A program made the position numbers and the translations under genes. Shown one piece after another: positions 34,538 to 42,246 of a DNA stretch of 64,000 bases; the stretch's first letter is position 1; each line of letters starts with the position of its first letter. Under the pieces are notes generated by a model, which did not search any database, was not told the origin of the DNA, and saw only the letters and a list, made by a program, of their open reading frames with translations. Source of the DNA: Membranipora membranacea (lineage: Eukaryota; Bryozoa; Gymnolaemata; Cheilostomatida; Membraniporidae); contig OU612067.1 in the NCBI GenBank assembly GCA_914767715.1, positions 9,674,001 through 9,738,000 on the forward strand. Reading direction: 5' to 3'.

Positions 34538-35173
34538 AGTTGTGAAATACCCTTTACCAGTGGTTCCTACATATCGTAGCAGCGGGTGGATTGTGTATAC
34601 CCACAAATGAGTGTAGCAAAAGTAGAGAGCTGAGCCTAGAATACAGGCGCCCCAGCATGCAATCACATGAATCCAACATGCATTCAGACAAGCACACTTT
34701 GCCTGACATTGTACTCCTTTGTTCACCAAACAAAAGGCCTTTTGTTACACAACTCTCATAGGTGCATTGGGGCATGTCTCCCTGACATCGGCCCCCAGGG
34801 CCTATCCAACATACTACAGCATAGGTGTACTTTATTTTGTAATGGGGGGGTTGGTAGCCAATATAACATGCTGTAAAAATGTGATATCTGCCATGTGATT
34901 TGCACTATATTTGATAGACTGGGCTGCTGAGATAAGAAGCCATTAATCTATCAATCAACTGTAGATATATCTCTGTCAACAAGGAGTTTGGAAGCTTGTA
35001 AAGACAGGATAATTATGAAGATGCTTTCTCACAGAAAAACTGAAAGGAGACAACTCCTTTCTCTCAACGTAGTCTCAGCTCAAACGGACACAGGTAAAAT
35101 GTTGTTCAGAATACTTCAACTTCAAATTCGCTTGACAATAGCTGACACAGAGCCAAATTCAAATTTTATGGAA
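34538..35173. other. spacer without a supported gene
   Basis: Open frames here (e.g. 34988-35200) have no domain signature. Contains a G-run (34844-34850) and the inverted CATTACAAAATAAAG copy that faces the one before 33543. Confidence 0.35.
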
Positions 35174-35506
35174 GAGCTTGTTAGCCACATAGCAGGGTAG
35201 GTCGAGGCGCAGATTGCTAGTAGAGGCGTAGCTTGCTGCTCTTGTTTTATTGGCTACTTATTGTATACAAACATTGTGAAAGCAAATGGTTTTATCAGAA
35301 TTGTGTATATTATGATGTCTTATACTTACAAACACTCTTTATATGCTTATGATATATGTCTATGTAATAGCACATATAAATTCTGATATTGCCATTGACA
35401 TGTGCTCAGTTCTGTAGAAACATCCTATATTTTGCAACATGTGTACTACTAAAACATTTCCAACATTCCAGCTAGTGTTAGACTTTATTTCAGAAGAGCA
35501 GGAAAG
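35174..35506 (+). repeat. 333 bp repeat, left (uninterrupted) copy of an inverted pair
   Basis: Almost identical, in inverted orientation, to 39662-39459 plus 38809-38672. I count about three differences in the first 200 bases. It reads through the site that holds a 649 bp insertion in the right copy, so it preserves the empty site. A partial third copy lies at about 38628-38670. The pair brackets the Ulp1/PHD gene. A common ATTTTAT lies just outside each end (35163-35169, 39668-39674), a weak target-duplication candidate. Confidence 0.9.
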
Positions 35507-35852
35507 ACAAGGGACTACCTTCACAAATGACCACACAGTGAATTGCAACTGAAAACACCACTTAGTGAGCTGAATTTTGGTGGGTAGCTTATTATACATC
35601 CTAGCCTTATTCAAAACTGGTGTTTGGGGATGTCTAATATTCTTAACATTTTGCAGCCTCATTTCTTTTCATTTAAGCAGCGACAAGTGCTACCTTACTT
35701 GCATTTAATAATAAATCACAAAGCTCGATGGTGCTGTCACAAACAAGGAAGAAACCACTGCAGTTGAATGATGGGAACAAATACTGCAGATATATTCAAC
35801 TGAGAGTTCACATTTACCGTATTTGAAAATATGTTCTGTGTGTCTATTTTAG

Positions 35853-37999
35853 ATCCTTTTGACTTTAGCAAACACCGACTGCGCTTTGATAATTGTGGGA
35901 GAGCCTTAGTGAATGTGTCTTCTGCGATCATGCATTGTTTATATGGAAAAGATCATCATACTGCTCATAAGAGAAAGGAAAAACAAAGGCGATCGGTAAG
36001 CTTACTATCACGTTCAAATATTTACCATGCCTAACCAAGAGACTTGTCTACCCAGAAGTGTGCTACTCAGAAAAAAACTTCTCGGGAATATTTTTCAGTT
36101 TTGCAAGAGATTGGAATATGAATTGATACGATAATACTATCAGAGGTTCCTGACGATTTAATTCAACCATAGATTTGCATTAAACCTCTCGCACATCATG
36201 GCTGTGTAATTCCCCATTGATGTTTGCAAGTTGGTCGGCCCACTTATTTACTGAGTGATCAGCACCTACATATTTACTCACCGTGAAATAAAATTATTAA
36301 AAAACTTGCAATTTGATTTTGGATCCTTGATACCTATGCTGCATCACCTAGACATAATTGTGACTGGTTAGTTAACAAGCATCAATAGTAAATGAGCCGG
36401 AGAACAATTGTAGGAGATAATCTGTCATATCCATTATTAACAAACGCTGGTACTCCCCTTAGCCCATTACAATTCTCTGTTTACACTAAATTAGATTAAA
36501 ACATATACAGACGACATAACTATCATCAAATACCAGCCGACACCTGTATCATAGGATTAGTCAATAGTAATACAATGCAATAATTTACAGTTGAAAACTG
36601 GTAAAACTAGAAATAAAAACCAATCTTTCTACAATATGACTGCGTAAGATAAATTGAAGTCAACTTGGCATTTCAATATTATGTTATTTCAGATTGACAT
36701 GGATCAAGATCATCCAGTGGTCAAGAAAACTCGGATGAGTACTCAGAATACTAAAAAGCTTGGATGTCCTGCTGCAATCAAAATATCCCGCTGCGTCATT
36801 TTTCAAGGCTTTGTTGTGAGTATCCCTAATGATTAGTTTAGCTTTTTACTGTTTCTATGCTGTTGTAATGTTGAAAACCTCACTTGATCTTTGCAAACAA
36901 ACTAGACTTACTCACTGTATTGCTGTTGTAATGTTCCACAGAAATGACAACCTCAATATTGTACACCTCCAATGGAGTGAAAATTGTACGGGAATTGCAT
37001 TAAAATGTATGTACACATGTGTGTATGTTGTGAGAAACCCAGTTACATTATCTTTGTTTCGGTCAACTTTTTATTACCAATATCTCGTCTTACTGTAAAT
37101 TTTCGCGAACATGGCTTTTTTATCTGCATTTGACAATTGCAGCTCACCCAGAATAAGTCTAATAAACATCAGCGAGTGAAACTAGCTACAGATCTGAAAG
37201 CTACAAGGTCAGAAGATATATGTTATATAAGTTTTTAATACATTATTTCTTCTTCCTGTAGGCCTAGAGAAAACACCTGCGAGCAGGATCTATGTAAAGC
37301 TGCTGATGGTACAAAAACAAGGTAACAGCCATGACTGTGGCCTGCATGCTGTTGCTAACTTGGTCAAAGTTTTGTTTGGCGGAGACCCGCAGGAATCGAG
37401 CTACGACCAACTTTCAATGAGACAGCACCTACACGACTGTCTGGCTCAGGGTCGTTTTAGTGTATTTCCTAAAGTTGATGTTGCCATGCCTCGCTTTAGA
37501 AGAACAACCAAAGTAACATGGTATCGGGTATGTAGGATCATTAACACCACAAGCACTCCCTTTCGGTTTTCTCAAAAATGCCATATTTTAGATCTATAAA
37601 CCTTCAACAATAATATAATAAAAGTTACTAGTCCAATAAATATAAAAAAGTAGCTCACATTTGTGAATATTTTGGTAAAGATAACTTGAGCTAGACATTC
37701 TTCGATAAAAATTTGTACTTTAACCTATTATGAAAGAAAATGTATGAACAGTACATAGATGTTCAGTACATATATTATACTCATGCAAAATTTTATTTAT
37801 ATTCTAGGTCTACTGCACCTGCCGACTAACGTTTAATCGTTTTGGACAGGATACGGATGATATGATTGAGTGTGAGGAGTGCAAGGAATGGTTCCACAGG
37901 GGGTGCGTCCACATTCCCTGGACAGCCTTTGAGCCCCTCACAAACGAAGTGACCAACTTCAGGTGTAGAAGATGCCGGGGAGGGGCATTCTTGATTTAG
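35853..37999 (+). CDS. Ulp1-like (C48) protease / PHD-finger protein, possibly transposon-borne or decayed
   Basis: Supported exon segments: 35853-35995 (DPFDFSKHRLRFDNCGRAL, basic end), 36693-36815 (KKTRMSTQNTKKLGCPAAIK), 37143-37207 (LTQNKSNKHQRVKL), about 37262-37527 and 37808-37999. The fourth segment has GNSHDCGLHAVANL (Cys box of a Ulp1-type cysteine protease), then YDQLSMRQHLHDCL and GRFSVFP, a pattern found in many multicopy invertebrate Ulp1-like proteins. The last exon, joined in phase 0, is a C4HC3 PHD finger (CTCR, CEECKEWFHRGC, CRRC) ending at TAG. The small Cys-containing segment with KLGCPA resembles the N-terminal domain of such proteins. The catalytic His portion of the protease is not visible, and the third exon's phase (2) does not fit the open frame of the fourth (needs 1), so the gene may be broken or an exon missed. 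AATAAA at 38098. Confidence 0.6.
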
Positions 38000-38097
38000 T
38001 ATCAATACTTTTCTCTCTTTGCACCAATTTAATTATTAATTGACCACTTAATTCTTGTGCCTTAAATTTTTTAACACATTTGACTACTCAGGCAGTA

Positions 38098-38103
38098 AAT
38101 AAA
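38098..38103 (+). terminator. poly(A) signal after the PHD exon
   Basis: AATAAA about 100 bases after the TAG at 37997-37999. Confidence 0.5.
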
Positions 38104-38671
38104 TGTGGGTTGTAAATATGTGGTTTCCGTGCTGGCATGTTTAGAGTTATCAAAGTTATGGTTTTAACTCGTGTAATTTACTGAATTCTTTTAATATTTA
38201 GCTTCATAATTGTTACGAGGGTGAAACATCATGTCTTTTACTCTTTATTGTTGTATCAGCTTATCAATTACAAATAAATTTCTTTATCAACCTAAAGATA
38301 TTTGAATGTATACATAAATATTTATATTTATTATATTGTAAAATCATAGTCTGACCTCCTCAAAGTCAATGATGCCGGTGGTTAACAAACATATCATTGT
38401 TGTGTTCATGTTGAAGAGTAGTCAAGGCTTTCCAATTAATAGACCTTCTAAGGATGATTCATCTAGTGAGAGGAGACCAAGCACAACATGCATATTCCAG
38501 GTTTAGGCGTCCCAGGGTTTTGTAAGCCAGAATGAGAAAAATCCGTACCCTCCTGAGGTTTCTAAGAGGCGTTGACACATTATTCTAAGCTTTGCCACAA
38601 TACCTACAAAGAACAGCAGACAAGTTGTCAGAATTTATATGTGCCATTACATAGACATACATCATAAACAA

Positions 38672-39662
38672 CTTTCCTGCTCTTCTGAAATAAAGTCTAA
38701 CACTAGCTGGAATGTTGGAAATGTTCTAGTAGTACACATGTTGCAAAATATAGGATGTTTCTACAGAACTGAGCACATGTCAATGGCAATATCAGAATTT
38801 ATATGTGCTCACTGAATTAGATTCTTCTCTTAGAATGGAAATAGTATCAAAGCGTTATACGGTTACAGGGACCCATCTGACTGTTATCTGATTGGCTGTC
38901 CCTAGTAGCATGAATAATTAGCCTGAGAAATTGTCTTGTTTACAAAATTGCAAACAGTAATTATACCCCATACAGTCATTCTGCGCATGCTCAGCTCTGG
39001 GCATGAGCTGATCTCTGCAAAATTGGGCCTCGGAATTCCGAAGCCATCTGATTGGCTACCTGCTCTGGTGGCACACTCACAAATGTGTGCGGAATTGTTA
39101 GAAAGAGTTCTCTTCTATTGTCACTATTAGCCAAAGTTGACTGGCAATTTATGCAGGGGGTGTCCGATCTCCCCAGACCAAAATTTCAATTAGAACCCAG
39201 ACTAAACTCATTGTTCTTGCACATGCGCAAATTCAATTCACGCATGATACATACTTAGCCTTACGACATTCTCTTTGTGGTAATGATATCCTAGTTTATC
39301 AGTGATCTACATGCCCAGTCAGATCACGAGAGTCAGTATGCCATACAGTGTCGATGATTAGGGCATTTCTAGATTGCTACTAGGGACTGGCTATTTTTGC
39401 AAGCCCTTTGTTTTGCAAAAGAAAGCTAATGATGCTTTTCCAGATATGGAATTCAATGTATGTGCTATTACATAGACATATATCATAAGCATATAAAGAG
39501 TGTTTGTAAGTATAAGACATCATAATATACACGATTCTGATAAAACCATGTGCTTTCACAATGTTTGTATACAATAAGTAGCCAATAAAACAAGAGCAGC
39601 AAGCCACGCCTCTACTAGCAATCTGCGCCTCGACCTACCCTGCTATGTGGCTAACAAGCTCT
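38672..39662 (-). repeat. 333 bp repeat, right copy, split by an insertion
   Basis: 38672-38809 and 39459-39662 together are the inverted counterpart of 35174-35506. The split point is occupied by the 649 bp element at 38810-39458, and the 8 bases TATGTGCT occur on both sides. Confidence 0.9.
38810..39458. mobile_element. 649 bp hAT-like non-autonomous element with 8 bp target duplication
   Basis: Flanked by direct TATGTGCT at 38802-38809 and 39459-39466. Ends are inverted: CACTGAATT at the left and AATTCAATG at the right (8 of 9 pair). An 8 bp target duplication with CA/TG termini is the hallmark of the hAT superfamily. The homologous left copy of the host repeat has a single TATGTGCT (inverted, in AATAGCACATA near 35370), i.e. 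the pre-insertion sequence. No transposase ORF. Confidence 0.85.
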
Positions 39663-39900
39663 CCCTTATTTTATACTGCACATAAAAACAGTTAAGACCA
39701 CTAACTGTCACAGCAAGGAGTAACTTCTTTTACAGATAAATGCATAAAAAAGCCGTACACAATGTGCAACTATAAAATTCATTTGCTTTGTAGTAATAAC
39801 TGCAGACTCCCTGCAATTCTAGTCATGGTTGATTTGCATTGGACTGGCACATCACCATCTATCCTCATCTAATAAATATATCAATTCAATATGATCTATC

Positions 39901-40050: not shown

Positions 40051-40231
40051 TTTGATCACAGACAGCAGGTCACTGACAGTTGATTTGATGAGTTGCAGCC
40101 TTGTGTGTGTGTGGTTTGTGTTTGTTGTGGTGAAGATGAGAAGTGACTTATCAGAGCAACGCATTTGGCGGGTACAGAAGCTGCGCAGCTGCGATAACTT
40201 GGTTCATGCACATCTTCACAACAAACACAAA

Positions 40232-40263
<32 letters not shown>

Positions 40264-40314
40264 GGCTGCAACTCATCAATCAACTGTCAGTGACCTGTTG
40301 TCTGTGGTTTGATA
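40051..40314. repeat. ~264 bp foldback with CA/TG tracts in its arms
   Basis: The left arm (CACAGACAGCAGGTCACTG, GAGTTGCAGCCTTGTGTG, GTTTGTGTTTGTTGTG) and the right arm are reverse complements apart from small indels. The CA repeat at about 40231-40262 is longer than its TG partner near 40103-40120. Frames across it are low-complexity and not genes. Confidence 0.8.
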
Positions 40315-41875: not shown

Positions 41876-42246
41876 TTAAACTACTGCTGCCACTCATGCA
41901 AATTTGTGCTCATTGAATTCTGCATAGCTCCAAGATACTTAATTGAGACTTAAATCTAATCACATAATTGTCACCTAATGAGCAAATAATTTGCACAAAT
42001 TGATCTTCAAAATCAGGACATGAAATCTACGCACCAGCTTATGACTGTACAGTTTGCACTAGTAAGACGGTAACTATGTCACCTGTTGCAGTAGATAATT
42101 AATATCATACCCTAATTTTGATGATCAGTTTGTGCAAATTATTTGCTCATTAGGTGACAATGCTGAGATTGCAGCCTCATTTTATTAGTTTTGAGCTATA
42201 CAGAATCTATAAGCACGCATTTGGCTGTGTGGCAGCAGTGGTTTAA
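41876..42246. mobile_element. 371 bp foldback element bounded by TTAA
   Basis: Begins TTAAACTACTGCTGCCAC (41876-41893) and ends with its inverse GTGGCAGCAGTGGTTTAA (42229-42246), 17 of 18 matching. A ~47 bp inner pair (41968-42014 with 42114-42160, containing CACCTAATGAGCAAATAATT) has two or three differences. TTAA at both ends is what piggyBac-type insertion leaves. No ORF. Confidence 0.8.

Follow-up and report, generated by a model that had tools for sequence, protein, structure and literature searches.

Positions 35170-39665 of the window (the whole stretch of 64,000 nucleotides of Membranipora membranacea DNA analyzed here) are, with a probability of about 0.93, an internally deleted, non-autonomous Mutator-like DNA transposon (MULE), descended from an autonomous element of the order ALS2CR8-MULE-SWIM-linker-Ulp1-PHD. 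The window copy has kept both ends needed for movement and has lost the middle of the transposase gene; its family is new, although mobile elements of this kind are known. A preceding reading of the letters alone (the sequence-only reading) had proposed a Mutator-type element with long terminal inverted repeats and a Ulp1 protease, and this proposal is supported by convergent arms, by perfect target-site duplications at 18 of 22 other loci and by a MULE-SWIM-Ulp1-PHD paralogue on contig C11. The family offers a clear case of an animal MULE, with an internal deletion series within one family, one deleted form in at least 12 places and, in the same assembly, a near-complete related gene that reveals which parts were lost. 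Annotation of the Ulp1/PHD gene between the arms as a host protease should be avoided.

Terminal inverted repeats and target site

The left terminal inverted repeat (35170-35506, forward strand) measures 337 bp and begins GGAAGAGCTTGTTAGCC. The right one lies on the reverse strand and is divided into an inner part (38672-38809) and an outer part (39459-39665); the left arm, read from 35170 to 35506, pairs with 39665-39459 followed by 38809-38672. With a 649-bp insert and one copy of an 8-bp duplication excluded, each arm is 337 bp long and the two differ at five positions (98.5% identity). The inverted arms of about 98% identity that had been perceived from the letters are thus real, and their bounds are now those given here. 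Long terminal inverted repeats, typically of more than 100 bp, are one of the marks by which MULEs are recognized, and the present arms exceed that length. A 43-bp partial arm repeat (38628-38670, reverse strand) lies just interior to the right arm and is present in many other copies, too.

The element, which is 3,839 bp long (35170-39665) without the later MITE, is flanked by a 9-bp target-site duplication, AAATTTTAT on the left (35161-35169) and TTATTTTAT on the right (39666-39674), the two copies of which match at only 7 of 9 positions; among pairs of positions drawn at random from 30-45 kb, 0.2% reach 7/9 or better. The duplication ATTTTAT put forward by the sequence-only reading is present, yet as seven matches of this 9-bp duplication.

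The right arm is split by a MITE that inserted later, a separate event that had not been foreseen. This nested MITE (38810-39458, 649 bp, with the ends CACTGAATT / AATTCAATG) lies within an 8-bp duplication, TATGTGCT (38802-38809 and 39459-39466), the second copy of which is also the beginning of the outer part of the arm. Its family is very abundant, with 2256 candidate places in the assembly; 40 were scored, and many of these matched across all 649 bases. Judging by duplication length and ends, the MITE is probably hAT-like. One of the other loci (L023) holds a shorter relative of it inside its own duplication, GATGCAGC.

Remnant gene

All five exons of the remnant gene lie on the forward strand. 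Exon E1 (35853-35995), placed by splice-site inspection, encodes the start of an ALS2CR8-type domain (profile positions 24-50), a match that is weak alone (0.0034, below the cut-off). Exon E2 (36693-36815) carries the KLGCPA segment (ALS2CR8 profile positions 53-87; Pfam 3.2e-6, 27.7 bits, slightly below the cut-off of 28.9). Exon E3 is a remnant (37143-37224), truncated by an internal deletion according to the comparison with loci L019 and L030; an end at 37207, suggested by a splice model, was ruled out by the comparison with L019, in which the exon is seen to be cut at 37224. The deletion junction (37224|37225) is common to 11 other loci. Exon E4 (37262-37527) encodes the C-terminal part of the Ulp1 (C48) domain with NSHDCG, the part bearing His and Asp being absent, and scores only 0.032 as Peptidase_C48 (profile positions 157-192 of 217). 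Exon E5 (37808-37999) encodes a PHD finger (Pfam 2.8e-8, above the cut-off) and the stop codon. The KLGCPA segment, the C48-type DCG box and the PHD finger pointed out by the sequence-only reading are all present; its view of one gene between the arms holds for the gene content but not for an intact gene, the middle being missing and exon 3 cut. No transposase (MULE) domain was found with Pfam in any of the six frames of the window interior, and the element is classified as non-autonomous for this reason, since a MULE DDE domain is needed only in autonomous members.

Copies in the assembly and insertion sites

The assembly surveyed comprises 339 Mb in 18 contigs. The arm search yielded 195 candidate places, the best 40 of which were scored; all 40 were full-length matches at 97-100% identity, which excludes a chance origin of the arms, and every one belongs to the window or to one of the 26 loci that were read around such matches. 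A 27th other locus, on contig C6, was located via exon E4. In all 27 other loci the arm is accompanied by interior sequence of the window element, and exon E4 is whole or partial in 17 and absent in 10 (these loci are the best arm or exon matches and so no random sample of the termini in the assembly). The ends of the family read GGRAGAGC, and a 28-nt terminus pattern occurs 112 times in the assembly (reversed control: 0). Among the 100 of these termini that were listed, there are 36 convergent pairs within 20 kb and 28 single termini; 10 of the 36 listed pairs span 972-1222 bp and 11 span 3641-3847 bp. The sequence-only reading had suggested a search of the genome for further units with both arms, and for arms on their own. 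Convergent arm pairs surround the same interior at many places, and in the loci read the arms accompany the interior, an outcome in favor of the element.

Regarding the 22 other loci with both outer ends, perfect 9-bp target-site duplications were found in 16, perfect 8-bp ones in two (L014 and L019), 7/9 matches in two (L031 and the locus on C6) and no duplication in two (L010 and L027). Locus L030 was omitted from this count for a second arm without its terminal bases, and L024, L032, L033 and L034 for one missing or cut end. Target-site duplications of 8-10 bp, another mark of MULEs, are thus found in the family, in perfect form at 9 or 8 bp in 18 of the 22.

A 15.6-kb terminus pair on contig C4 was considered as one element and rejected, as L033, which lies inside it, has a left arm of its own. 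Within L033 (4993-7991), 3 kb between the arms contain no Pfam domain above the cut-off and are perhaps another nested insertion. Part of one arm (positions 175-337) is tandemly repeated in L010, L014 and L025. Some termini have the variant sequence GGAAGAAC; they pair over distances of about 1.0-1.2 kb and, from their end positions, resemble a subfamily of short MITEs belonging to this element.

Internal deletions and spread of the deleted form

Compared with the window at 37224|37225, L019 has 1.1 kb of extra sequence, which holds the end of the ALS2CR8 domain (profile positions 161-233, 1.1e-8). What L030 retains is the linker plus the beginning of Ulp1, including NGNHWV and VAYFDS, which we take, from a reading of the motifs, to be the expected catalytic His and Asp. 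The linker-Ulp1 stretch of L030 is complete at only one place in the assembly, and the exon with the ALS2CR8 end has eight places with an identity of at least 79%, six of which belong to loci that were read.

The deletion junction of the window, traced by a 30-mer with up to 3 substitutions, is present in 11 other loci read, i.e. in 12 with the window. Seven of the 11 have perfect, mutually different 9-bp duplications, one has 7/9, two have none and one has a cut end. These data indicate that the deleted form itself moved or was copied to new sites, most likely by means of a transposase made elsewhere. The mean pairwise difference is 0.9% in the 10 of these 12 loci that were compared, versus 1.7% over all 20 aligned units.

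In the surviving exons, the 11 junction-sharing loci show 21 non-synonymous and 5 synonymous distinct variants relative to the window, at a neutral expectation under equal rates of 3.5-4.0 non-synonymous per synonymous variant (short or gapped exons were dropped). Over all copies (23 units compared with the window) the counts are 39 and 13, a little below the neutral ratio. Exon E4 is free of stop codons in 14 of 14 full-length copies. Variants in the exons of the deleted form look neutral, with no sign of constraint at the level of sequence. It appears a most improbable proposition that the deleted form still expresses its ALS2CR8 start and its Ulp1/PHD end and that these, by repressing the autonomous element or giving it SUMO-related help, account for the multiplication of the form.

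The paralogue on C11 and the search for an autonomous source

The near-complete paralogue on contig C11 (L044 joined to L050) contains, in this order, the ALS2CR8 end (Pfam 5.6e-8), a ZSWIM1-3 RNaseH-like domain (1e-15) with MULE (4.8e-12), SWIM (3.2e-5), Peptidase_C48 (4.6e-4; 20.5 bits versus a cut-off of 20.7) and PHD (7.1e-6); the linker lies between SWIM and Ulp1. The pieces of the window family are collinear with this MULE gene from the ALS2CR8 end to PHD, with protein identities of 56% in the ALS2CR8 end, 55% over 22 residues in the linker, 41% and 49% in the N- and C-terminal parts of Ulp1, respectively, and 46% in PHD. The 7.7 kb of the paralogue that were read showed no arms and do not reach its first ALS2CR8 exons. 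The ALS2CR8-type DNA-binding domain, which defines the vertebrate factor CARF, is here linked to a transposase gene; a literature search among open-licence papers found none that joins ALS2CR8 to MULE.

The assembly contains 32 MULE-domain matches, none of them within any copy read, and only one (C10:14433853) lies less than 50 kb from one of the 100 listed termini. An autonomous copy with these arms, i.e. the family's own transposase source, was not found in the assembly. In public assemblies, a protein (P0007) has the linker and the Ulp1 part in one open frame with 97-98% identity to L030, which indicates that a less damaged relative exists elsewhere. A long-protein search with exon E4 gave 12 candidates, none at E 0.001, and a short search gave three matches, two of them at 96-97%; scans of viral and genome contigs revealed no relative. 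A diverged sister family was encountered at C5:19307769-19308023 (L038/L039), with an exon E4 that is 85% identical and pieces of the same gene; no arms were matched there.

The ancestor would have been autonomous, with a single gene that joined a DNA-binding domain of ALS2CR8 type to a DDE transposase (MULE), a zinc finger (SWIM), a linker, the Ulp1 protease and the PHD finger. A MULE transposase from another copy would have bound the long arms, excised the element and placed it in a new site with a stagger of 9 bp. The internal deletions may have arisen where gaps left by excision were repaired imprecisely, and what remains of the gene presumably yields no working transposase or protease.

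Alternative explanations

The sequence-only reading had also considered a gene caught between two MITEs, here a host Ulp1/PHD gene lying by chance between two independent insertions. Seen from a single locus, the arms alone do resemble MITEs, and end positions (10 of the 36 listed pairs) suggest that a short form exists, about 1.0-1.2 kb long and closely related in its ends; across the loci read, nevertheless, these arms enclose the same gene pieces, and one duplication surrounds the whole unit, perfectly so in 18 of 22 loci, which leaves chance bracketing with next to no probability. Gene fragments free of transposase between MULE-type arms also have the appearance of a Pack-MULE, that is, a MULE that has picked up pieces of some other gene of the host (CARF-like or Ulp1/PHD). 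No separate host gene is indicated, however: the retained pieces are collinear with the one C11 gene that itself holds a transposase domain, and the parts of this one gene that are kept vary from copy to copy, which is explained better by losses within the gene of the element itself than by capture and renders a Pack-MULE highly improbable.

Two other groups of elements share features with the family. Ginger1 is also able to carry Ulp1 and PHD, as in Ginger1-9_HM, and its arms reach 270 bp (PMC2836005). A Ginger1 derivative is extremely unlikely, as Ginger1 has 4-bp CCGG or CCGT duplications and begins with TGTNR (PMC2836005), versus 9 bp and GGRAGAGC here, and as the collinear C11 paralogue has a MULE domain. 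Membership in Rehavkus, a MULE-like group with a PHD finger in the transposase and 9-bp duplications, agrees with the PHD finger, the duplication length and the arms (26-400 bp) in the table of PMC6446971. Against it stand the minisatellite before the 3' arm described for Rehavkus (PMC6446971), no tandem array being found at 35000-39800 of the window copy, and the domain of the C11 paralogue, which scores as MULE; we regard Rehavkus as very unlikely and retain the deleted MULE as the explanation.

Known relatives

Animal MULEs have been termed poorly known, and some reports of chordate MULEs, that on lancelet included, have been questioned (PMC6446971). The defining traits of ordinary MULE families are long arms, duplications of 8-10 bp and derivatives with deletions (PMC5225508, PMC6446971). 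The presence of Ulp1 in hydra and lancelet Mutator elements has already been published, as has that of Ulp1 together with PHD in Ginger1 and Mutator transposases (PMC2836005), so the label 'undescribed' given by the sequence-only reading applies to the family but not to its kind. The hydra and lancelet Mutator (MuDR) elements (Repbase entries cited in PMC2836005) resemble the window family in having Ulp1 in the Mutator transposase gene, with PHD aligned beside Ulp1 (legend of Fig. 1e), and differ in that the window family is without the transposase part; the likeness is one of description. With Ginger1, the likeness is in Ulp1 and PHD at the transposase end of Ginger1-9_HM (PMC2836005), the difference in target duplication and end sequence. 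The non-autonomous derivatives of Muta1 from Aedes aegypti (PMC5225508) have, as here, arms of more than 100 bp, 8-9 bp duplications and many deletion derivatives with variable interiors, whereas the subterminal tandem repeats of Muta1 were not found here at 35000-39800 and the term Ulp1 has 0 occurrences in the text of PMC5225508. Among plant MULEs, those with extra arms, tandem or partial (PMC3310237), are comparable to the tandem part-arms of L010, L014 and L025 and to the 43-bp partial repeat, but differ in their plant hosts and in an interior that is unrelated as far as known.

Other features of the window

Two nested inverted repeats around a CA-rich core make up a foldback at 40057-40306 (29-nt arms, complementary at 97-100%), and the stretch 41876-42246, about 370 bp long, folds back imperfectly and may be another MITE. 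An animal origin fits the presence, in the window, of introns, of cilia-related Ig domains and of a rhodopsin-type receptor (7tm_1, 2.9e-19).
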